From Thomasclavelia ramosa DSM 1402 (GTDB lineage Bacteria > Bacillota_I > Bacilli_A > Erysipelotrichales > Coprobacillaceae), in the NCBI RefSeq assembly GCF_014131695.1, contig NZ_CP036346.1, positions 1,860,001-1,924,000 of the forward strand: 64,000 nt of DNA, given 5' to 3'. Positions 11,663 through 35,149 of the stretch are shown here, in pieces (positions within the stretch are counted from its first letter, which is position 1; each line of letters opens with the position of its first letter). The notes below the pieces were generated by a model, which worked only from the letters and a program-made list of their open reading frames with translations, did no database searches and was not told the origin of the DNA. The translations under genes were made by a program, and so were the position numbers.

Positions 11663-11908
11663 AAAAACTCGTCCTTTAAGCCAAAGGACGAGCATTGCCC
11701 GTGTTACCACCTTAATTCATTATTACCTCACAGCAATAACCTCTTCGAGTACAATCATACTCTAGTGCGCTAACGGGCACACCCGTCATAGGCTAAATAT
11801 CGCCTACAAGACTCCAAGACCATCTTCATTCATTATCCCCTATCCTTTTCCACCATCCAAGGATTCTCTATAAAGTTCAAGTGAACTACTCTTCTTTTCA
11901 TTGTCGTT
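11663..11908 (-). promoter_or_regulatory. T-box leader of metNIQ (probably Met)
   Basis: On the minus strand the leader shows the T-box consensus AAGGTGGTAACACGG (11698-11712) followed by an intrinsic terminator CTCGTCCTTT / AAAGGACGAG with T run (11663-11692). Upstream are Stem I features: an AGAGA-type element and GGATGGTGGAAAAGG. TGGT in the T-box matches a tRNA with discriminator A, as tRNA-Met has, and ATG triplets are present in the expected specifier region (GAATGAAGATGG). Uncharged tRNA-Met would favour read-through into metN. Specifier assignment is by eye. Confidence 0.88.
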
Positions 11909-11914
11909 GGCAAT

Positions 11915-17399: not shown

Positions 17400-17428
17400 T
17401 AAAAAGATTAGATTTTTGCTATCTAATC
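17400..17428 (-). terminator. Terminator of the histidine operon
   Basis: Stem GATTAGAT / ATCTAATC with a T run on the minus strand; the stop codon of the last gene lies within the stem. Confidence 0.85.
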
Positions 17429-18208
17429 CTTTAAACGCCCTGTAAATGTACTAACATCCTCAAAGCCGATTTTAATTAAATTTTCTTTAACGTCATTGAC
17501 ATACTGACCAACTCGATCACTTGTATGACTATCTGTACCAATAGTAATAATACGACCTCCTAAATCATAATAACGTTGAACTTGTTCAAAATTTGGAAAG
17601 CCGCAAGTCTGATTAACTGCATATCCAGAAGTATTTACCTCAATCCCCTTATTTTTAATAATCAAATTTTTAAATATTTCATCAATTATATTCTGATATT
17701 TCTTATGTTCAACTTTTTTATCTTCATAAGGCCCGTATCGCATAATGTAATCTAAATGTCCTAAAACATTAAAACAGTCAAAATTTTTAACGCACCTTAG
17801 CGTTTCTTCAAAGAAAGCCTGATGAGCTTGCTCTTTATTTAGATTTTTAAAAAAATCCCCATAATAAAATTCAGTATGATCAATTACATGAATTGAGCCA
17901 ATTACAAAATCAAAAGGATACTGGTTAATCAAATTATTAATCTCTAATTGATGATTCATATCTAGACCTATTTCAATGCCCCATTTTATTATAATTTTAT
18001 CTGCAAATTCTTTTTTTAAAGCCATAATTGTTTGATAATAACCTTCGACATCTAGATCAAAAACATCAATTGGGTAATCGAAATCACGATGATCAGTAAA
18101 ACAAATCTCATCTAGTCCCATTTTAATTGCTTGAATTACATGTTCACGCGGATCAGCCTCACTATCACCTGAAAATCTAGTGTGCATATGATAGTCAATG
18201 GAACGCAT
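17423..18208 (-). CDS. hisK: Histidinol-phosphatase, PHP family
   Basis: Metal-dependent phosphatase making histidinol from histidinol phosphate. The PHP motifs are all visible: DYHMHTRFSGDS at the N-terminus, EICFTDHRDF near residue 35, WGIEIGLD near 80, VIGSIHVID near 105, LGHLDYIMRYG near 150 and TIGTDSHTSDRVG near 225. 261 residues, usual for HisK/HisJ. It starts 1 base after the hisIE stop, at the end of the his operon, which supports the role; HisB here has no phosphatase domain, so a separate phosphatase is needed. Confidence 0.92.
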   Translation of the reverse strand: MRSIDYHMHTRFSGDSEADPREHVIQAIKMGLDEICFTDHRDFDYPIDVFDLDVEGYYQTIMALKKEFADKIIIKWGIEIGLDMNHQLEINNLINQYPFDFVIGSIHVIDHTEFYYGDFFKNLNKEQAHQAFFEETLRCVKNFDCFNVLGHLDYIMRYGPYEDKKVEHKKYQNIIDEIFKNLIIKNKGIEVNTSGYAVNQTCGFPNFEQVQRYYDLGGRIITIGTDSHTSDRVGQYVNDVKENLIKIGFEDVSTFTGRLKD

Positions 18209-18209
18209 T

Positions 18210-18848
18210 TTAATAGTCTCCTTTAGTATGAAAATCTTTCTTATTTCCAGTTATTTTATGACGATCTTTTAACTTATTTTCAATATCGTCAAGTGTTACC
18301 CCTTGATTATTCATTAAAACAAAAACATGATAAAATAAATCACTGATTTCACCGATTAATTCTTCCTTATCATCATTTTTAGCCGCGATAATCGTTTCAC
18401 TTGCTTCTTCACCTACTTTTTTACAAATTTTATCAACACCTTGATCTAATAAGTAATTAGTATATGATTTTTCAACTGGGTTTTGTTTCCGATTTTCAAT
18501 TAGATTTGATAGACTTCTAAAAATATTAGTATTATCATAAGCCATTATTTCATTAAAGAAACAAGAGTACGCTCCAGTGTGACATGCTGCTCCAATTTGT
18601 TCAACAAAAATTAACAGTGTATCTAAATCACAATCTAAATACATCCCTTTAATATTTTGAAAATGACCTGATGTTTCACCTTTATGCCATAGTTCATTCC
18701 TACTTCTTGAAAAAAAACAAGTTTGATTTGTTTCTAACATTCTTTGATATGCTTCTTCGTTGACATAAGCTAACATCAAAACTTCATTTGTTTTATAGTC
18801 CTGAACAATAGCAGGAATCAACTCCATTTTTGTAAAATCTGGTTTCAT
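18210..18848 (-). CDS. hisIE: Bifunctional phosphoribosyl-AMP cyclohydrolase / phosphoribosyl-ATP pyrophosphatase
   Basis: Carries out steps 2 and 3 of histidine synthesis. The N-terminal HisI domain (about 1-110) has the metal ligands in [10 protein letters not shown] and [10 protein letters not shown], with [15 protein letters not shown] before them. The C-terminal HisE domain (about 115-205) has [15 protein letters not shown] and [13 protein letters not shown], a MazG-like fold. 212 residues, standard fusion length. Its ATG shares one base with the hisF stop. Confidence 0.95.
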
Positions 18849-19612
18849 TACATTGCTCTCCTTACATTTATATCATGTTTTCTTAATTCTCTGCGGACAT
18901 CTTCAACAGTTGCTTCACCAAAATGAAATAATGAAGCCACTAAAGCTGCATCACAATTTGTTTTTTTAAAGACATCTACAATATCTTGAATACTGCCACA
19001 ACCACCACTTGCAATTACTGGGATATCAACAGCATTACATACCGCATTGATCATTTCAATATCATAACCCGCTTTGGTTCCATCTGCATCCATTGAAGTC
19101 AATAGAATTTCCCCAGCACCCAATTCTTCACATTTAGTTACCCATTCTATTAAATCAATTCCAGTATTTTCACGGCCACCTTTTACATAAACATCATAAC
19201 CGTCATCATCACGTTTTTTAGCATCGATTGCAACGACTACACACTGTACCCCAAATTCATCAGCAGCCGCTTTTATTAAATCAGGGTTTGCAATAGCTGC
19301 CGAATTAACAGATACTTTATCTGCTCCACTAGCTAAGATCGTTCGAAAATCATCAAGCGTCCGGATTCCCCCGCCAACAGCTAGAGGAATCGTTAATTCA
19401 CTAGCCCCGCGTTCAATAATATCTTTAATAATATCACGTTCTTCATAACTTGCAGTAATATCTAAAAACACTACTTCATCAGCACATTGCTGATCATAAC
19501 GTTTAGCTAATTCAATGGGATCTCCAACATCTTTCAATTCTACAAAATTAATTCCTTTTACAACTTTACCATTTTTTATATCCAAACAAGGTATTATCCG
19601 TTTTGTAAGCAT
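18848..19612 (-). CDS. hisF: Imidazole glycerol phosphate synthase, cyclase subunit
   Basis: Cyclase half of IGP synthase, a (beta/alpha)8 barrel working with HisH. Catalytic Asp11 is in [15 protein letters not shown] and the second Asp (about 130) in VVAIDAKKR. 254 residues. Its start lies 19 bases inside the end of hisA, so translation is coupled. Confidence 0.96.
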
Positions 19613-20319
19613 GTAATAACCTCCTTGAGATCTACTTTACCCTCATAATAAGCCTTACCAACAATACATGCATAATAGTTCTTACTAGCTACATCTTTAA
19701 TATTTTGAGCATCTTTAATGCCCCCTGAAACAACAAAGTTAATAGTAGAAGTTCTAGCGATCTGTTCATACATATCAAAGTTAGGACCTTGTAATGTTCC
19801 ATCTTTACTAATATCTGTAGCAACAATGTATTTAACCCCTAACTTCTCTAACTCTTTGATAAACTCCAAGTATGGCACGTTACTGATTTTTAACCAGCCT
19901 GAAGTTGAAACAAAGCCATCTTTAACATCAACTCCTACGACAATTTTTTCAGGACCATAGGTATTAATAGCACTTTTTAAAAACTCTGGATCATTAATTG
20001 CAGCAGTTCCTAAAATTACCCGATCTATTCCTACTTCATCTAAATATAAAGCAACTGTTTCAATATTTCTAATCCCCCCACCAAGTTCTACTTGCATTGA
20101 AGTATTTTGTTTTATTTTTTTAATTGTTTCAAGATTAATACATTCACCATCTTTAGCACCATCTAAATCAACGACATGAAGCAATTTAGCGCCCATTTCT
20201 TCAAAAGCTTTAGCTAATTTTGCCGGTTCATTACTATATACTGTTTTTTGATTATAATCACCTTTAAACAATCTAACGGCTTGACCATCTTTTAAATCTA
20301 TTGCTGGAATAACTAACAT
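19594..20319 (-). CDS. hisA: Phosphoribosylformimino-AICAR phosphate isomerase
   Basis: Isomerase of step 4, a (beta/alpha)8 barrel paralogous to HisF. Catalytic Asp8 in [14 protein letters not shown] and the second Asp near residue 130 in [20 protein letters not shown] near 200 binds phosphate. 241 residues. Overlaps hisH by 7 bases upstream and hisF by 19 downstream. Confidence 0.96.
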
Positions 20320-20921
20320 TCGATCATCTCCTTAAACGCTAATAATATTTTTTGTCCTACAGCTCCACTTTTTTCAGGATGGAACTGGCAACCAATCACA
20401 TTGTCTTTAGCCGCAATTGCCGTTATATTTGTCTTACCATAATCACTATAAGCAATTAATTGTTCATTTGGGCATGTTGCCATAAAAGAATGAACAAAAT
20501 AGACATCATCATTTTCATGAATATTTTTTAAAATTGGATGGTTTTGGTTGAAATGTAATTGATTCCAACCCATATGAGGAACCTTTTCATCAATATCCAT
20601 AAAGACTACTTCTCCATCCAGGAAACCTAATCCTTTAGTTTCTTCAACTTCATACCCTTTTTCAAATAAAATTTGCATTCCCAAACAAATTCCCAAAATT
20701 GGTATTCCAGCATCTTTTCGTTCATTTAAAACATCAATTAAATCAAACTTTTTTAAATTATTCATAGCTACCGGAAAAGCCCCTACTCCAGGTAATACAA
20801 TTGCTTTAGCTTGGCGAATAATATCTTTGTCACGAGTAATTACAGCTTCAATTCCGACCCTTTTTAAAGCGGAAATAACACTACTTAAATTACCAATATT
20901 GTAGTCAATGATTACTACCAT
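20313..20921 (-). CDS. hisH: Imidazole glycerol phosphate synthase, glutaminase subunit
   Basis: Class I glutamine amidotransferase that feeds ammonia to HisF. Catalytic Cys in ILGICLGMQILFE near residue 80, catalytic His and Glu in GCQFHPEKSG near 180. 202 residues, usual. Lies 19 bases after hisB with its own ribosome site. Confidence 0.96.
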   Translation of the reverse strand: MVVIIDYNIGNLSSVISALKRVGIEAVITRDKDIIRQAKAIVLPGVGAFPVAMNNLKKFDLIDVLNERKDAGIPILGICLGMQILFEKGYEVEETKGLGFLDGEVVFMDIDEKVPHMGWNQLHFNQNHPILKNIHENDDVYFVHSFMATCPNEQLIAYSDYGKTNITAIAAKDNVIGCQFHPEKSGAVGQKILLAFKEMIEC

Positions 20922-20940
20922 CTAAATCCCCCCTTGATTT

Positions 20941-21528
20941 TTATAAGACTCCTTTTGATGAAACAACTTTATCTTTGTTAGCTTCATCAATACTAACCGC
21001 TTCTTTTAAAGCTCTTCCTAAACTTTTAAATATAGCTTCAACAATATGATGATTATTAGTTCCATACTGTTCATTAATATGTAAAGTAATCAGTGAATTA
21101 AATGCCAATGCCCGAAAAAATTCTTCCGTCATTTCTGTTTCAAATGTGCCAATTCTTTCACAAGTTAGATTAACATTATAAACTAAGAAAGGACGCCCAC
21201 TAATATCTAAATTGGTTGTTACTAGCGTTTCATCCATCGGAATAGTAAAAGCTCCATATCTTTTAATCCCGAGTTTATTGCCAAGCGCTTCTTTTAAACA
21301 AGTTCCTAAAGCAATTCCAATATCTTCTACTGTATGATGAGTATCAACTTCTAAGTCACCTTCGCATTTAACGATTAAATCAAAACCTCCATGAAAAGCA
21401 AATAGTGTTAACATATGATCAAAGAATCCGATTCCAGTACTAATTTCACTTTTACCTTCTCCATCTAAATCTAATTGCACAAGAATTTTCGTTTCTTTTG
21501 TTTCACGTTCAATCTTTCCAATTCTCAT
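20941..21528 (-). CDS. hisB: Imidazoleglycerol-phosphate dehydratase
   Basis: Manganese-dependent dehydratase of step 6. The two metal motifs are DTHHTVEDIGIALG near residue 68 and NNHHIVEAIFKSLGRAL near 165; the N-terminal GFFDHMLTLFAFHGGFDL is also typical. 195 residues: the monofunctional form without the phosphatase domain found in enterobacteria, consistent with the separate PHP phosphatase downstream. Confidence 0.96.
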   Translation of the reverse strand: MRIGKIERETKETKILVQLDLDGEGKSEISTGIGFFDHMLTLFAFHGGFDLIVKCEGDLEVDTHHTVEDIGIALGTCLKEALGNKLGIKRYGAFTIPMDETLVTTNLDISGRPFLVYNVNLTCERIGTFETEMTEEFFRALAFNSLITLHINEQYGTNNHHIVEAIFKSLGRALKEAVSIDEANKDKVVSSKGVL

Positions 21529-21530
21529 GA

Positions 21531-22829
21531 CTATTCCTCCTCAAATCTTACTGCTACTGAATTTGCATGGGCATCTAAACCTTCACTTTTAGCAAATTTA
21601 ATTACATCTTCCTTGAATTCGCCTAAGACTTTTTTAGGATAATAGCTATAAGATGAATATTTAACAAAATCATATACCCCTAATGCCGAATAAAACTTAG
21701 CAGTTCCTCCAGTTGGTAGTACATGGTTAGTTCCACTCATATAATCGCCTAATGGTTCCGGTGAATATTCTCCTAAGAAAATAGAACCGGCATTTTTAAT
21801 TTTTGGTAACATATTTACAGGATTATCTACTAATACTTCTAAATGTTCTGGTGCTAAATAGTTGGAAACATCAAATGCTTCATTCAAATTATCAACAATG
21901 ATTGCTCCACCATAATTAACCAAGGATTCTTCGATAATATCTCTTCTTGATAAATAAGCCATTTGGCGAACTAATTCACCATTTACTTTAGCCACTAAAT
22001 CACGACTTGTCGTAACTAATAAAGCACTAGCCAGTTTATCGTGTTCTGCCTGACTCATTAAATCAGCAGCAATATATTTAGGATTAGCGTTCTCATCTGC
22101 AATTACCAATACCTCACTTGGGCCTGCAACCATATCAATATCAACAAGTCCATAACTAAGTTTTTTAGCCGTCGCAACGAAAATATTTCCAGGACCTACG
22201 ATTTTATCGGCTTTCTTTATTGTTTCAGTACCATGAGCAATGGCAGCCACCCCTTGAGCGCCACCAAATTTATAGATTGTATCGACCCCACTTACTTTTG
22301 CTGCAGCAATAATAATCGGATTAACTTTTCCATCTTCTTTTACCGGTGTAATAATTACTAAATCTTTAACTCCCGCTAACTTTGCTGGAACAGCATTCAT
22401 TAATACTGTAGAAGGATAACTAGCGGTTCCCCCAGGAACATATAATGCCACCCGTTCAATTGGACGCACCATCTGTCCCATGATTACCCCATTATCTTTA
22501 AATAAAGACCATGATTTATCAATTTGATTTTTATGAAATTCAGTAATTTGTTCTTTAGTTCTTTCAAGGATACGTAGATAATCTGCATCTATTTGTTTTA
22601 ATGCTTCTTCTTTTTCTATCTCACTAACGATTAAATCTTTTTCATCATTAATTTGATAACCATCAAACTTTAAACAATACTCATATAATGCTTTATTTCC
22701 ACGTTCATTAATATCTTCAATAATTTTTAATACAGCCTCATTTACTTCCTTATTAACACTTTCCTTACGGCTGTCTAATTTAGTCGCTACCGCTTCTAAA
22801 TTGCCTTTATAATCAACGATCTTTAACAT
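21531..22829 (-). CDS. hisD: Histidinol dehydrogenase
   Basis: Zinc enzyme that oxidises histidinol to histidine in two NAD-dependent steps. Motifs include VALYVPGGTASYPSTVLM near 115, MVAGPSEVLVIAD, SQAEHDKLASALLVTT near 255 (zinc and catalytic residues) and SGTNHVLPTGGTAKF near 365. 432 residues. Shares one base with the hisG stop. Confidence 0.96.
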   Translation of the reverse strand: MLKIVDYKGNLEAVATKLDSRKESVNKEVNEAVLKIIEDINERGNKALYEYCLKFDGYQINDEKDLIVSEIEKEEALKQIDADYLRILERTKEQITEFHKNQIDKSWSLFKDNGVIMGQMVRPIERVALYVPGGTASYPSTVLMNAVPAKLAGVKDLVIITPVKEDGKVNPIIIAAAKVSGVDTIYKFGGAQGVAAIAHGTETIKKADKIVGPGNIFVATAKKLSYGLVDIDMVAGPSEVLVIADENANPKYIAADLMSQAEHDKLASALLVTTSRDLVAKVNGELVRQMAYLSRRDIIEESLVNYGGAIIVDNLNEAFDVSNYLAPEHLEVLVDNPVNMLPKIKNAGSIFLGEYSPEPLGDYMSGTNHVLPTGGTAKFYSALGVYDFVKYSSYSYYPKKVLGEFKEDVIKFAKSEGLDAHANSVAVRFEEE

Positions 22830-23458
22830 TATTTTCCCTCCGTAACAGTTTCTAATTTAGTAACCAAATTCATAATTTCATCTTTTTTAAACTTAAAACT
22901 AACTTTGTTGGCCACTAATCTAGTTGAAATATCACTAATTTTTTCAATCACTTCTAAGCCATTTGCTTTTAAAGTCGACCCCGTTTCTACAATATCCACA
23001 ATTGCGTCACTGATTCCCACGATTGGTCCCAATTCTACAGATCCTTCTAATTTAATGATTTCAACATCTTCTTGTTTTGTTGCAAAATATTTTTTTGCTA
23101 CTTTAGTATATTTACTTGCAATTTTTTTACGCCGTTCAAATTTCTTGTTACGATACTCTGGATAAGCCGCTACAGCAAAGTAACATTTACCTATATTTAA
23201 ATCCAATAATTCATAATAATCTTCAAAATCAACATCGTCTAATGTATCTTTACCAACAAAACCAATATCGACAATTCCGTGTTCTAAGAAAGTTACTACA
23301 TCATTGGCTTTACCAAAAATCATTTCAATTCCATCTTTTGTTGCAATTAATAATTCCCGATCCTTATTAAAAATTGGTTCCATATCAAATCCCGCTTCTT
23401 GTAACAACTTACAGACCTGCTTTTCAATTCTACCTTTAGTTATTGCTATTTTAATCAT
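22829..23458 (-). CDS. hisG: ATP phosphoribosyltransferase, short form
   Basis: First enzyme of the pathway, joining ATP and PRPP. 209 residues when started at ATG 23458, which has a very strong Shine-Dalgarno GGGGGAAGG five bases upstream; this is the short HisG lacking the C-terminal His-binding domain and therefore needs HisZ, encoded directly upstream (8-base overlap). Motifs: [11 protein letters not shown] at the start, [11 protein letters not shown] near 72 and [17 protein letters not shown], the PRPP-binding loop, near 160. Confidence 0.95.
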
Positions 23459-24431
23459 TATTGCCTTCCCCCTGCTTATCAATCGCTTTTAAAATATGAT
23501 TCATATGGTAGCAAAATCCAATTGCACCGACATTTTTATTGAATCTTGGTAATAAGTCATCATATCTTCCCCCAGAAATGATTGGCTGCGCACTTTTATC
23601 ACTATATCCTTTAATCATTAAGCCAGTGTAGTATTTCATTGTTGGCACCATTCCTAAATCAAAAATGATACTTTCTTTATTATCCAAAGAGTTATATAAC
23701 TCTTTTAATCTTTCCAAAGCCTTTAACAATATTTCATCATTTATTCCTTTGATTGCAGTATCTAATAAAGTGATATCACCAAAAGCAGTCGGCAATTTTA
23801 ATAATAGTTCATTTAACTGCCCATCAAATTCATTATCGGCAACAAACTTTTTCATTTCACTTATATCCCGATACTTCAATATTTCTGTTAATTCAACTGC
23901 CTTATCACCAACCAGTGTGCATAGGCGATTAAAAAAACGTGCTGAACCAATTTCTACAAGAATATTTTTTAATCCAAGATGTGGTAAAGACTCTTGAATC
24001 ATGTTTAAACATTCTTTATCACCAGCAATTCCAGGCTTGTTGATCAACTCAACTCCACCTTGAAAAAACTCACTGGAACGTCCTTTATGCATAGTTTCCT
24101 TACGGTATACTTTACCAAAATAACAATAACGTGCTTCTTCATCACCATAATTGTTTGTTGAATAGAAACGTGCTAATGGAATTGTAAAATCACAGCGCAT
24201 TGCAACATTTTTACCTTCATGATTAATGTACTGAAACATTTTTTCTTGTTCAAAACCACAATCTAATTGAGTATATAAGTCAACATACTCAAATGATGGC
24301 ATTAACACTTCATTATAGTTATTCTTTGCAAAGATAGCTCTTAAACTATTTTCAATCTCTCGTAATTTCGATACATTAGTAATAATTGCGTCAATGCTTT
24401 CTTCCGGTATTAAATACTTAAATTCTTCCAT
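23451..24431 (-). CDS. hisZ: ATP phosphoribosyltransferase regulatory subunit
   Basis: HisRS-like paralogue that pairs with the short HisG and carries feedback regulation by histidine. Class II synthetase-like core: [19 protein letters not shown] split around residue 50, [14 protein letters not shown] (motif 2-like) near 80, and [22 protein letters not shown] near 285. 326 residues from ATG 24431, seven bases after GGGGGAAA; the frame extends 12 codons upstream toward the attenuator but without a ribosome site. First structural gene of the his operon. Confidence 0.93.
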
Positions 24432-24452: not shown

Positions 24453-24482
24453 AAAAAAACGAGTCATTACACTAATGACTCG
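24453..24482 (-). terminator. Attenuator terminator of the his operon
   Basis: Perfect 10-bp stem CGAGTCATTA / TAATGACTCG (loop of 3) with a seven-T run on the minus strand, ending 22 bases before the hisZ start. Its 5' arm can pair instead with an upstream CTAATGAC (plus-strand 24496-24503), an 8-bp antiterminator candidate. Confidence 0.88.
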
Positions 24483-24560
24483 CTAAAGTAATATTGTCAT
24501 TAGATACACCCAAATAATATTTAACACAAAATGGGTTGTATCAATAAACTGATAAAACCC
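24483..24560 (-). promoter_or_regulatory. Competing RNA pairings of the his attenuator
   Basis: On the minus strand, segment 1 GGGTTTTATCA (24550-24560) begins at the last base of the leader-peptide stop and pairs with segment 2 TGATACAACCC (24533-24543). Segment 2 can also pair with segment 3 GGGTGTATC (24503-24511). The base after it starts CTAATGAC, which can hold the 5' arm of the terminator. This is the layout of ribosome-mediated attenuation; the order of switching is inference. Confidence 0.65.
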
Positions 24561-24610
24561 TAGGCAATCCAATGATGGTGATGTAATTGTAAATTTGTTG
24601 TTGTTTTCAT
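24560..24610 (-). CDS. Histidine operon leader peptide, 16 aa with HHHHW
   Basis: Short reading frame encoding MKTTTNLQLHHHHWIA with the codons CAT CAC CAT CAT for four consecutive histidines. It has a Shine-Dalgarno GAGAGGTG six bases before the ATG and ends about 80 bases before the attenuator terminator. The same organisation is known from enterobacterial HisL, where ribosome stalling at His codons under starvation prevents termination. No T-box sequence was found in this leader. The peptide itself probably has no other job. Too short for standard gene calling, but RBS, His run and terminator agree. Confidence 0.88.
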   Translation of the reverse strand: MKTTTNLQLHHHHWIA

Positions 24611-24955
24611 AATTAACACCTCTCATTGTATACAATATATCATATCTAATGATAAATGAAAAGATAAAATTAATTAAAATTATAGATTTATCATAAAGTT
24701 TATTTATCTAACTTGTTAAAATCTTAAATTTTTATCTTCAACATTACCATTGCCATTTATAATCAAATATTTACCAAAATTCGTGAGTATTAGCAAATAT
24801 TCGTTAAATATTAGCTAAAAAAGGCGAAATATTTTAGAAAAACATGAATCTTATTACCTAGTTTACTAAAAGAAAATAAATAATAACAATTCCCCTTTTA
24901 CTAAAATCATTGTCTTTATATAATAGTTTTTGTCATTATTTGGAAGGAGAATAAT
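24611..24955. other. Intergenic region between his leader and the Spo0A-like gene
   Basis: 345 bases without a gene. It must hold the his promoter (on the minus strand TATGAT at 24639-24644 with a weak TTATCT 17 bases upstream is the best I see) and the promoter of the Spo0A-like gene (TATAAT at 24919-24924, no good -35). TATTAGC occurs twice, at 24788-24794 and 24809-24815, exactly 21 bases apart, and TTTACTAAAA occurs at about 24862 and 24897. Confidence 0.5.
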
Positions 24956-25453
24956 ATGAAACAATACTACATATATATTTTAGAAGAAGATGAAGAAATA
25001 TCTGCTGAACTGATTGATCATTTATCAAACAATAATAACATTTGGATAGAAGCAGTCAATAATCTTCAGTCCACAAATCATAGTGAAGTTAAACTTGAAC
25101 ATAATATTACAACAATTCTAAAGCAGGTTGGCATTCCGGCTCACTTGAAAGGCTACATGTATTTAAGAACTGCTATTTTAATGGTATACTCTGATATCGA
25201 ATTATTAGGTCAAATAACAAAAAGACTTTATCCAAATATTGCTCGCCAATACAGTACGACAGCCTCAAGAGTTGAAAAAGCAATTCGTCATGCAATTGAA
25301 AACAGTTGGAATCAAGGTGACAAAAGAAAAATTAATACCATTATTAGGGCCGCCCCAGATTCTCTTAAAGGAAAACCAACAAATTCTGAATTTATTGCTT
25401 TAATTGCAGATAAACTCAAAATAAAAAATCGTTATGCATTTGAAAGCAGATAA
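24956..25453 (+). CDS. Spo0A-like protein with deleted receiver domain
   Basis: 165 residues. From about residue 48 to the end it is a full Spo0A effector domain: [37 protein letters not shown], the recognition helix [15 protein letters not shown] and [15 protein letters not shown]. The first 37 residues ([20 protein letters not shown]) resemble only beta-1, the acidic pair and helix 1 of a receiver; the phospho-acceptor Asp and the rest are missing. It should therefore bind 0A-box-like DNA without phosphorylation control, as an activator, or as a competitor of the true Spo0A. AAGGAG precedes the ATG. It converges on a second protein of the same type. Confidence 0.85.
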
Positions 25454-25486
25454 AAAGAAGTTTTATATGAACTTCTTTTTATAAAT
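25450..25486. terminator. Bidirectional terminator between the two Spo0A-like genes
   Basis: Stem AAAAAGAAGTT / AACTTCTTTTT with a seven-base loop; T runs on both strands serve both converging genes. Confidence 0.85.
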
Positions 25487-25908
25487 TACTCATTATATAT
25501 TTTATATTCTGACAACAGTCGATCAGTTACCATTGAAATAAATTCTGAATTACAAGGTCGATGTTTAGCTCGATAACCAAACATTTTTTCTAACTCTACA
25601 AGATTACCGTTTGACCAAATAACCTTGATTATATGTCGGATTGATTGTTCCACCCGTGACGAAGTTGTAGAATACTCTCTTGCTACACTTGGGTATAATT
25701 CTTTTGTAATTTCTGTCAAAATTTCAATATCACTGCATGAACGTTTTATTGCTGAAACTAAATAACCAAATCCGTTTAAATGATTTGGTGCACCTATCGA
25801 TAAAAATATTTCATATAGTCGTTTCATTATAAATATATTTTTATCTCTACTATTCTTTTCTATCATTTGATCCTTTGGTAAGATCACAATACTAAATTCC
25901 CTATTCAT
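25486..25908 (-). CDS. Second, diverged Spo0A-like protein without receiver
   Basis: 140 residues, homologous to the effector domain of Spo0A over about 35-135: IFLSIGAPNHLNGFGYLVSA, DIEILTEITKELYPSVA, YSTTSSRVEQSIRHIIK and PCNSEFISMVTDRL. It is more diverged than the partner at 24956-25453 (for example GF for GY and SIRHIIK for AIRHAIE), and its N-terminus keeps only a strand-like FSIVILPKD in place of a receiver. No strong ribosome site precedes the ATG, so expression may be weak. The pair probably arose by duplication; DNA targets may overlap. Confidence 0.78.
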   Translation of the reverse strand: MNREFSIVILPKDQMIEKNSRDKNIFIMKRLYEIFLSIGAPNHLNGFGYLVSAIKRSCSDIEILTEITKELYPSVAREYSTTSSRVEQSIRHIIKVIWSNGNLVELEKMFGYRAKHRPCNSEFISMVTDRLLSEYKIYNE

Positions 25909-32948: not shown

Positions 32949-33024
32949 TGGTGACCTGTACGGGATTCGAACCCGTGAATGCATGCGTGAAAGGCATGTG
33001 AGTTAACCGTTTCTCCAACAGGCC
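32949..33024 (-). tRNA. tRNA-Glu (TTC)
   Basis: Loop CTTTCAC gives anticodon TTC; acceptor GGCCTGT / ACAGGTC, discriminator A, CCA encoded. Last gene of the array and outside the duplicated block. Confidence 0.95.
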
Positions 33025-33031
33025 AAATCAA

Positions 33032-33107
<76 letters not shown>

Positions 33108-33109
33108 AT

Positions 33110-33186
33110 TGGCGGTCTGGACGGGACTCGAACCCGCGACCTCCGCCGTGACAGGGCGGCATTCTAACCAACTGAACTACCAGACC
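33110..33186 (-). tRNA. tRNA-Asp (GTC), copy 1
   Basis: Anticodon loop CTGTCAC; acceptor GGTCTGG / CCAGACC; discriminator G and CCA. Confidence 0.96.
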
Positions 33187-33188
33187 AA

Positions 33189-33265
<77 letters not shown>

Positions 33266-33308
33266 ATATTTTTTGCATTATTTTATTTCGGCTGAATTTT
33301 AAATTAAA

Positions 33309-33401
33309 TGGCGAGGGATGAGGGATTCGAACCCCCGCGGGACGTTAATCCCCTGTCGGTTTTCAAGACCGATCCCTTCAGCCGGACTTGGGTAATCCCT
33401 C
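33309..33401 (-). tRNA. tRNA-Ser (TGA), copy 1
   Basis: Class II tRNA with long variable arm; loop CTTGAAA gives anticodon TGA; acceptor GAGGGAT / ATCCCTC, discriminator G and CCA. Confidence 0.95.
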
Positions 33402-33413
33402 GCATTCTTAAAT

Positions 33414-33490
33414 TGGTGGACCCTGTTGGACTCGAACCAACGACCGATCGGTTATGAGCCGATAGCTCTAACCAACTGAGCTAAGGGTCC
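33414..33490 (-). tRNA. tRNA-Ile2 (CAT, probably lysidine-modified), copy 1
   Basis: Loop CTCATAA; the body GGACCCTTAGCTCAGTTGGTTAG matches Firmicute tRNA-Ile2 rather than elongator Met, so C34 is probably converted to lysidine by TilS to read AUA. Assignment by resemblance. Confidence 0.8.
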
Positions 33491-33526
33491 TTGTTGTTTC
33501 TTGACTTACGGGCACCGTTATTAAAT

Positions 33527-33603
33527 TGGTAGCGGGGAAGGGATTCGAACCCCCGACCCACCGGGTATGAACCGATTGCTCTAGCCAACTGAGCTACCCC
33601 GCC
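33527..33603 (-). tRNA. Elongator tRNA-Met (CAT), copy 1
   Basis: Loop TTCATAC; acceptor GGCGGGG / CCCCGCT, resembling Firmicute elongator tRNA-Met; discriminator A and CCA. Confidence 0.88.
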
Positions 33604-33640
33604 GTAATCAACTACAGCAATGCTATAATTTAATAATTAA

Positions 33641-33716
33641 TGGTGGAGCCTAGCGGGATCGAACCGCTGACCCCCTGCGTGCAAGGCAGGTGCTCTCCCA
33701 GCTGAGCTAAGGCCCC
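33641..33716 (-). tRNA. tRNA-Ala (TGC), copy 1
   Basis: Loop CTTGCAC; acceptor GGGGCCT / AGGCTCC with the G3-U70 identity pair; CCA encoded. Confidence 0.96.
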
Positions 33717-33731
33717 AATTATTATTTTAAA

Positions 33732-33808
33732 TGGTCGGGAAGACAGGATTTGAACCTGCGACCCCCTGGTCCCAAACCAGGTGCACTACCAAGCTGTGCT
33801 ACTTCCCG
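33732..33808 (-). tRNA. tRNA-Pro (TGG), copy 1
   Basis: Loop TTTGGGA; acceptor CGGGAAG / CTTCCCG; discriminator A and CCA. Confidence 0.96.
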
Positions 33809-33825
33809 TTCTATTTTTACTCAAA

Positions 33826-33902
33826 TGGCGCGCTAGGCAGGAATCGAACCCACAACCTCTTGATCCGTAGTCAAGCACTCTATCCAGTTGAGCTACTAGC
33901 GC
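33826..33902 (-). tRNA. tRNA-Arg (ACG), copy 1
   Basis: Loop CTACGGA, anticodon ACG (A34 probably edited to inosine); acceptor GCGCTAG / CTAGCGC; CCA encoded. Confidence 0.95.
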
Positions 33903-33926
33903 ATCGTTCACTTACAACGCCTATCT

Positions 33927-33955
33927 ATATTAACACATCTTATTAGCTTTTGCAA
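33927..33955 (-). promoter_or_regulatory. Promoter within tRNA block copy 1
   Basis: TTGCAA, 17-base spacer, TAATAT on the minus strand, about 25 bases before tRNA-Arg. The same promoter is in copy 2. Confidence 0.8.
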
Positions 33956-33995
33956 GATTTATTTATACTTTTTTAGACAACACGCCATCAATGCC

Positions 33996-34022
33996 CGAAA
34001 TAAAAACGAACCATTGTTCGTT
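33996..34022 (-). terminator. Terminator between the two tRNA blocks
   Basis: Perfect stem AACGAAC / GTTCGTT, CATT loop, TTTTTATTT tract on the minus strand. It lies in the 67-base linker unique to the junction and makes the two blocks separate transcription units. Confidence 0.82.
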
Positions 34023-34032
34023 ATGTTTTAAA

Positions 34033-34108
<76 letters not shown>

Positions 34109-34110
34109 AT

Positions 34111-34187
34111 TGGCGGTCTGGACGGGACTCGAACCCGCGACCTCCGCCGTGACAGGGCGGCATTCTAACCAACTGAACTACCAGACC
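34111..34187 (-). tRNA. tRNA-Asp (GTC), copy 2
   Basis: Same sequence as the copy at 33110-33186. Confidence 0.96.
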
Positions 34188-34189
34188 AA

Positions 34190-34266
<77 letters not shown>

Positions 34267-34309
34267 ATATTTTTTGCATTATTTTATTTCGGCTGAATTT
34301 TAAATTAAA

Positions 34310-34402
34310 TGGCGAGGGATGAGGGATTCGAACCCCCGCGGGACGTTAATCCCCTGTCGGTTTTCAAGACCGATCCCTTCAGCCGGACTTGGGTAATCCC
34401 TC
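34310..34402 (-). tRNA. tRNA-Ser (TGA), copy 2
   Basis: Same sequence as the copy at 33309-33401. Confidence 0.95.
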
Positions 34403-34414
34403 GCATTCTTAAAT

Positions 34415-34491
34415 TGGTGGACCCTGTTGGACTCGAACCAACGACCGATCGGTTATGAGCCGATAGCTCTAACCAACTGAGCTAAGGGTCC
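34415..34491 (-). tRNA. tRNA-Ile2 (CAT), copy 2
   Basis: Same sequence as the copy at 33414-33490. Confidence 0.8.
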
Positions 34492-34527
34492 TTGTTGTTT
34501 CTTGACTTACGGGCACCGTTATTAAAT

Positions 34528-34604
34528 TGGTAGCGGGGAAGGGATTCGAACCCCCGACCCACCGGGTATGAACCGATTGCTCTAGCCAACTGAGCTACCC
34601 CGCC
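34528..34604 (-). tRNA. Elongator tRNA-Met (CAT), copy 2
   Basis: Same sequence as the copy at 33527-33603. Confidence 0.88.
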
Positions 34605-34641
34605 GTAATCAACTACAGCAATGCTATAATTTAATAATTAA

Positions 34642-34717
34642 TGGTGGAGCCTAGCGGGATCGAACCGCTGACCCCCTGCGTGCAAGGCAGGTGCTCTCCC
34701 AGCTGAGCTAAGGCCCC
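34642..34717 (-). tRNA. tRNA-Ala (TGC), copy 2
   Basis: Same sequence as the copy at 33641-33716. Confidence 0.96.
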
Positions 34718-34732
34718 AATTATTATTTTAAA

Positions 34733-34809
34733 TGGTCGGGAAGACAGGATTTGAACCTGCGACCCCCTGGTCCCAAACCAGGTGCACTACCAAGCTGTGC
34801 TACTTCCCG
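34733..34809 (-). tRNA. tRNA-Pro (TGG), copy 2
   Basis: Same sequence as the copy at 33732-33808. Confidence 0.96.
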
Positions 34810-34826
34810 TTCTATTTTTACTCAAA

Positions 34827-34903
34827 TGGCGCGCTAGGCAGGAATCGAACCCACAACCTCTTGATCCGTAGTCAAGCACTCTATCCAGTTGAGCTACTAG
34901 CGC
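34827..34903 (-). tRNA. tRNA-Arg (ACG), copy 2
   Basis: Same sequence as the copy at 33826-33902. Confidence 0.95.
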
Positions 34904-34927
34904 ATCGTTCACTTACAACGCCTATCT

Positions 34928-34956
34928 ATATTAACACATCTTATTAGCTTTTGCAA
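34928..34956 (-). promoter_or_regulatory. Promoter within tRNA block copy 2
   Basis: TTGCAA, 17-base spacer, TAATAT, same as in copy 1; it lies between tRNA-Leu and tRNA-Arg, so this block can be read from here as well as from the promoter at 35205-35233. Confidence 0.8.
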
Positions 34957-34975
34957 GATTTATTCTTTTAAGAAA

Positions 34976-35064
34976 TGGTGCCCAGGGCCGGAATCGAACC
35001 GGCACGGATTTTAAGGTCCGCAGGATTTTAAGTCCTGTGCGTCTACCAGTTTCGCCACCTGGGC
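34976..35064 (-). tRNA. tRNA-Leu (TAA)
   Basis: Class II tRNA, loop CTTAAAA gives TAA; acceptor GCCCAGG / CCTGGGC, discriminator A, CCA encoded. Single copy, outside the duplication. Confidence 0.95.
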
Positions 35065-35074
35065 AACACATTAA

Positions 35075-35149
35075 TGGAGGTTCCAACCGGACTCGAACCG
35101 ATGATAACAGAGTTGCAGTCTGTTGCCTTACCAACTTGGCCATGGAACC
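35075..35149 (-). tRNA. tRNA-Cys (GCA)
   Basis: Loop CTGCAAC gives GCA; acceptor GGTTCCA / TGGAACC with the Cys-specific U73; CCA encoded. First gene of the array. Confidence 0.95.

Follow-up and report, generated by a model that had tools for sequence, protein, structure and literature searches.

We find that the minus-strand DNA upstream of hisZ very likely forms a ribosome-mediated transcription attenuator of the histidine operon. Its leader and terminator very probably switch the his genes on at histidine shortage, a predicted response. As a computational prediction the finding is already known, since such attenuators were reported in Erysipelotrichales by Ashniev et al. 2022 (PMC9413887). 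The present analysis adds a sharply bounded distribution across the family, the geometry of the ribosome footprint, changes that are compensated twice and a gap in the switching scheme. Attenuation is strongly supported by the conservation in 39 genomes, the compensatory changes, the footprint geometry and the absence of a T-box.

Leader and operon architecture

The window is the whole 64,000-nucleotide stretch analysed, and the features below are given in its coordinates.

24634 to 24642, minus strand: extended -10 promoter element TGATATATT, from which the transcription start is predicted
24617 to 24624, minus strand: ribosome-binding site GAGAGGTG of the leader peptide, recognised by sequence
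24560 to 24610, minus strand: leader peptide ORF MKTTTNLQLHHHHWIA, stop TAG, with the His codons at 24583-24572
24551 to 24560, minus strand: segment 1, GGGTTTTATC, whose first base is the last base of the leader stop codon
24533 to 24542, minus strand: segment 2, GATACAACCC, partner of segment 1 or segment 3
24503 to 24512, minus strand: segment 3, TGGGTGTATC, partner of segment 2
24496 to 24503, minus strand: antiterminator 5' arm, CTAATGAC
24472 to 24479, minus strand: antiterminator 3' arm, GTCATTAG, doubling as part of the terminator 5' arm
24453 to 24482, minus strand: intrinsic terminator CGAGTCATTA-gtg-TAATGACTCG with seven T, from sequence, alignment and folding energy
23451 to 24431, minus strand: hisZ, first gene of the operon, start ATG at 24431
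17423 to 23458, minus strand: hisG, hisD, hisB, hisH, hisA, hisF, hisIE and a HisJ-type PHP phosphatase gene, from NCBIfam matches and the PHP domain

The original prediction had described a frame with four His codons, its ribosome site and an attenuator hairpin with seven T before hisZ, and all these parts are found on the minus strand. The leader ORF reads ATG AAA ACA ACA ACA AAT TTA CAA TTA CAT CAC CAT CAT TGG ATT GCC TAG. The terminator stem pairs 24482-24473 with 24469-24460, the T run occupies 24459-24453, and the hairpin has a calculated folding energy of -11.2 kcal/mol. The whole-leader fold is stabler than those of 200 dinucleotide shuffles (z = -3.5). Segments 1 to 3 form two mutually exclusive hairpins, 1:2 and 2:3, and the 8-bp antiterminator shares an arm with the terminator.

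Taken alone, the (CAY)4 run is weak evidence: the window has two where 0.15 would be expected, and the whole genome has 56. It stands above chance because the run, frame and spacing are kept in 38 of 39 related hisZ leaders. In the minimum-energy fold the His codons pair with the ribosome site, a pairing that was rejected for want of convincing covariation among the relatives, judged by eye. At the end of segment 2, CCCATTTTG (24527-24535, minus strand) is conserved beyond pairing needs. A GC-ended hairpin and then ATTTT at this place could be a putative pause site that keeps RNA polymerase in step with the ribosome.

The genome is of Thomasclavelia (Coprobacillaceae, Erysipelotrichales), and many members of this genus were formerly named Erysipelatoclostridium. 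The operon has the order hisZ-G-D-B-H-A-F-IE-J, all downstream of the leader. The best NCBIfam match of hisZ is TIGR00443 (E 1.7e-67), a match below that model's curated cut-off, and the gene also matches Pfam tRNA-synt_His. HisZ shares 93% identity with the Thomasclavelia cocleata protein and 90% with the one from T. saccharogumia. The mechanically listed hisZ ORF starts at 24467, inside the terminator; the real start is almost certainly 24431, with its good ribosome site and the relatives aligning there.

Several other features of the window were recorded. Adjoining the his operon are two convergent genes (24956-25453, plus strand; 25486-25908, minus strand) that each encode a Spo0A C-terminal DNA-binding domain on its own, matching PF08769 at E 5e-40 and 3e-34 and having no receiver domain. 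A tRNA gene cluster at 32949-35149 contains two tandem copies of nine genes (Phe, Asp, Met, Ser, Met, Met, Ala, Pro, Arg). This repeat, of 1001-bp period, points to a recent duplication. A T-box leader at 11681-11910 (minus strand, 125 bits) lies upstream of a MetN-like ABC transporter gene with a NIL domain.

Proposed mechanism

RNA polymerase would make a leader of about 170 nt while the His-rich peptide is translated. With ample histidyl-tRNA, the ribosome would get to the stop codon and mask segment 1, so that 2:3 would form and the terminator would halt transcription ahead of hisZ. With scarce histidyl-tRNA, the ribosome would stall on the His codons and leave segment 1 free to form 1:2. 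Segment 3 would then stay open and the antiterminator would take the terminator 5' arm, and the operon would be transcribed. Two of these steps we infer, namely the responsiveness to histidine and the manner in which 2:3 disables the antiterminator. No experimental test of the predicted attenuator was found in the literature searched.

Conservation and distribution in Coprobacillaceae

A HisZ search at E 1e-60 or better was positive in 40 of 43 Coprobacillaceae genomes, and the leader survey covered 39 genomes of 17 genera with readable DNA upstream of hisZ. The leader is present in all 39 and has at least four His codons in 38. The frame of the peptide and its own ribosome site are also kept in 38 of the 39, which predicts translation. 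The His motif is typically QLHHHHW or QFHHHHW, and the first half of the peptide is variable. Nearly all relatives have a leader ribosome site like GAGGTG or GAGGTA.

All 39 family leaders carry the extended -10 box, TGnTAnn(A/T)T, at a distance of 30-34 nt upstream of the ATG. Every member has a terminator with a T run between leader and hisZ, and the conserved stems do not include the hisZ ribosome site.

A covariance model of the element, built from 30 leaders, was scanned over 395 genomes sampled from the class. It matched 16 of the 17 sampled family genomes and none of the 378 others. The sole family genome missed (G022) has a diverged leader form, L041. The model found one significant site in the window's genome, the hisZ leader; as to a second copy there, the scan gave only a weak match (E 0.2) lacking a leader.

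Some leaders depart from the common form. L041 lacks the usual segment 3, and by eye CCGTTTT/AAAACGG could substitute for 2:3. L040 (genome G021), the single leader of the 39 that does not keep four His codons, looks degenerate, with HRH only and an intact terminator; its usual TAG stop reads GAG, which extends the frame by four codons. L008 and L047 ([Clostridium] spiroforme An567) have about 100 extra bases between terminator and hisZ.

Pairing evidence for the stems

In the 30 aligned leaders used for stem scoring, 99% of the cells are paired for 1:2, 97% for the antiterminator and 99% for the terminator. Across all 39 leaders the antiterminator cells are 94% paired. Sliding the partner strand by 1-3 columns as a control left 20 to 47% paired in the two tested sets. 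The high percentages say little alone because much of the sequence is invariant. Similarly, 1:2 is nearly devoid of covariation because its sequence is nearly invariant.

More informative are compensating changes. L043 and L045 have a C-to-T change in the shared arm (segment 4) together with matching changes in its antiterminator partner and in its terminator partner, and L053 carries the same antiterminator change from G-C to A-U. Such changes are few but good evidence for the stems. Both the conserved His run and such compensatory changes, by which the original prediction was to be judged in relatives, are thus found in the family. In the HisZ tree these three leaders fall within one larger clade, and one or two origins of the change are both possible.

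The register of 2:3 moves in several lineages with compensating changes, for example in L043 and L045. In L034-L038 and their relatives the outer antiterminator pair is lost, and many of them have an inner pair instead.

Ribosome position and the choice of hairpin

In 35 of 39 leaders, 2 nt separate the first base of the stop codon from the start of segment 1. The last His codon has its first base 14 nt ahead of segment 1 in 31 of 39. A downstream ribosome footprint of 12 nt was assumed, as known from toeprints. With this footprint and spacing, segment 1 lies exactly under a ribosome that has reached the stop codon, and just beyond the reach of one halted on the last His codon. The family-wide spacing fits the earlier claim that a terminating ribosome would cover segment 1 and a stalled one would not.

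Folding calculations with a 12-nt downstream footprint gave the same dependence as means over the 39 leaders. Between a modelled ribosome at the first His codon and one at the stop, the mean for 1:2 drops from 5.6 to 0.01 bp and that for 2:3 increases from 4.1 to 9.2 bp. The choice of 1:2 or 2:3 by ribosome position is hence supported. In the window leader, 1:2 is weak at equilibrium, with 0 bp when the ribosome is at the first His codon and 2.6 bp at the last. Switching there would therefore need 1:2 to be formed first during transcription.

The link from 2:3 to the antiterminator

The originally proposed set of competing stems holds in that 1:2 excludes 2:3 and the antiterminator takes an arm of the terminator, but 2:3 and the antiterminator share one nucleotide only (24503). 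With this overlap, the two are not strictly exclusive. The antiterminator pair of the shared nucleotide is lost in eight leaders (L034-L038, L040, L050, L061), so there the two stems have no pair in common. The proposed switching order is likewise supported in its first half only, where the hairpin choice follows the ribosome position; in the second half, 2:3 and the antiterminator coexist in the folding calculations.

Energetically, the computed antiterminator stability is -4.5 kcal/mol with 1:2. Next to 2:3 it is -4.4 kcal/mol when a ribosome occupies segment 1 and -1.7 kcal/mol when segment 1 is free. These values imply that the link from 2:3 to the antiterminator may act after the ribosome departure, or via timing, stacking or pausing beyond the scope of such energies. 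In equilibrium folding nearly all states favour the terminator. For the window leader alone, a crude folding run limited by barriers had the opposite outcome, an implausible order that we do not rely upon. The gap at this step does not count against attenuation.

Tentatively, the Coprobacillaceae attenuator may depart from the classical chain of exclusive hairpins. Its 2:3 and antiterminator would be contiguous and compatible, and another coupling, by a freed segment 1 that traps the antiterminator arm, by stacking or by pausing, would relay the ribosome position to the terminator.

Alternative explanations

It is extremely improbable that the leader is a T-box sensing uncharged tRNA-His directly, as in other Firmicutes. 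In the sister family each of the five examined hisZ operons does have a T-box ahead of hisZ, and one precedes hisS in the window's own genome. However, the T-box model has no match in the hisZ leader at the gathering threshold or at E up to 10, the same search picks up the T-box upstream of the MetN-like gene, and a scan of 23 other family members shows none ahead of hisZ; the model search thus refutes this reading. The Rfam His leader, RF00514, was rejected too, with no covariance match at the site even at E up to 10, and the leader matches neither of the two Rfam models against which the original prediction was to be checked. All matches to PF01371 for a TrpR/HisR-type repressor in the genome are below the cut-off (best E 0.01), and regulation by HisR was discarded since the genome has no hisR above it. 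The short ORF might be incidental and the terminator might serve a small-molecule riboswitch or an RNA-binding protein, or merely dampen transcription, which would agree with the segment sequences, including the unpaired CCCATTTTG stretch, being conserved beyond the needs of base-pairing. This is quite improbable, as the His codons, frame, ribosome site and stop spacing are conserved although other residues of the peptide vary, and no Rfam riboswitch matches the leader.

An element that works chiefly on translation, such as through coupling to hisZ or reinitiation there, would fit the distance of about 130 nt from the leader stop to hisZ, and the title of PMC4833913 states that leader genes can boost downstream translation through reinitiation. 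It is still very improbable, given the strong conserved terminator and T run in all members and a hisZ ribosome site that is not within the conserved stems. A possible, if less favoured, variant compatible with ribosome-mediated attenuation has no direct competition between 2:3 and the antiterminator. Once the ribosome leaves the stop, the freed segment 1 and its loop would take up the antiterminator 5' arm outside 2:3; otherwise timing and pausing at the hairpin followed by ATTTT would decide. In 29 of 36 leaders the antiterminator is indeed less stable, by at least 0.5 kcal/mol, when 2:3 and a free segment 1 take the place of 1:2 (mean 2.8 kcal/mol), and segment 1 pairs with the antiterminator arm in the minimum-energy fold of the window leader, but the position of this extra pairing is not conserved and several genera lack it.

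Relation to known systems

The ribosome-mediated attenuator can be compared with several devices. The enterobacterial hisL (RF00514) has the same logic of a His-rich peptide, alternating hairpins and a terminator. It differs from the present leader in sequence and in segment count (a difference of 'fewer segments'), and the likeness is probably convergent. The T-boxes before his operons of Erysipelotrichaceae and Lactobacillales control the same genes, sense tRNA-His shortage and act by transcription termination, but they bind the tRNA directly without translation, unlike the present leader.

Ribosome-mediated attenuation was originally regarded as a different solution for a Firmicute, but it is not new there, as both PMC9413887 and Naville and Gautheret 2010 (PMC2965389) reported it. 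The latter described, for bacilli, His leader peptides ahead of hisZ and hisS*; these share with ours a His codon run before hisZ in Firmicutes and differ in lineage. According to PMC9413887, his operons without HisR and T-boxes were screened for attenuators, and novel candidates with 3-5 consecutive His codons were found in six Erysipelotrichales (Eggerthia, Erysipelatoclostridium, Catenibacterium, Coprobacillus and [Clostridium]), in five Eubacteriales, with Peptostreptococcaceae among the groups, and in the Bacillus cereus group.

The same paper gives no RF00514 motif in Firmicutes and no HisR in the Erysipelotrichales genomes examined, and our RF00514 and HisR negatives agree with them. 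By that paper's description, rather than stem by stem, its candidates resemble the present leader in taxonomic order, operon, His run, attenuator or terminator hairpins and antiterminator. The scope differs, with six Erysipelotrichales species there against 39 genomes of 17 genera here.

Hence, one gut Firmicute family appears to use ribosome-mediated attenuation for its his operon, and T-boxes are found at hisS of the same genome and, in its sister family, at those hisZ operons that were examined. The family pair is a clean case for studying how one regulatory device is replaced by another.
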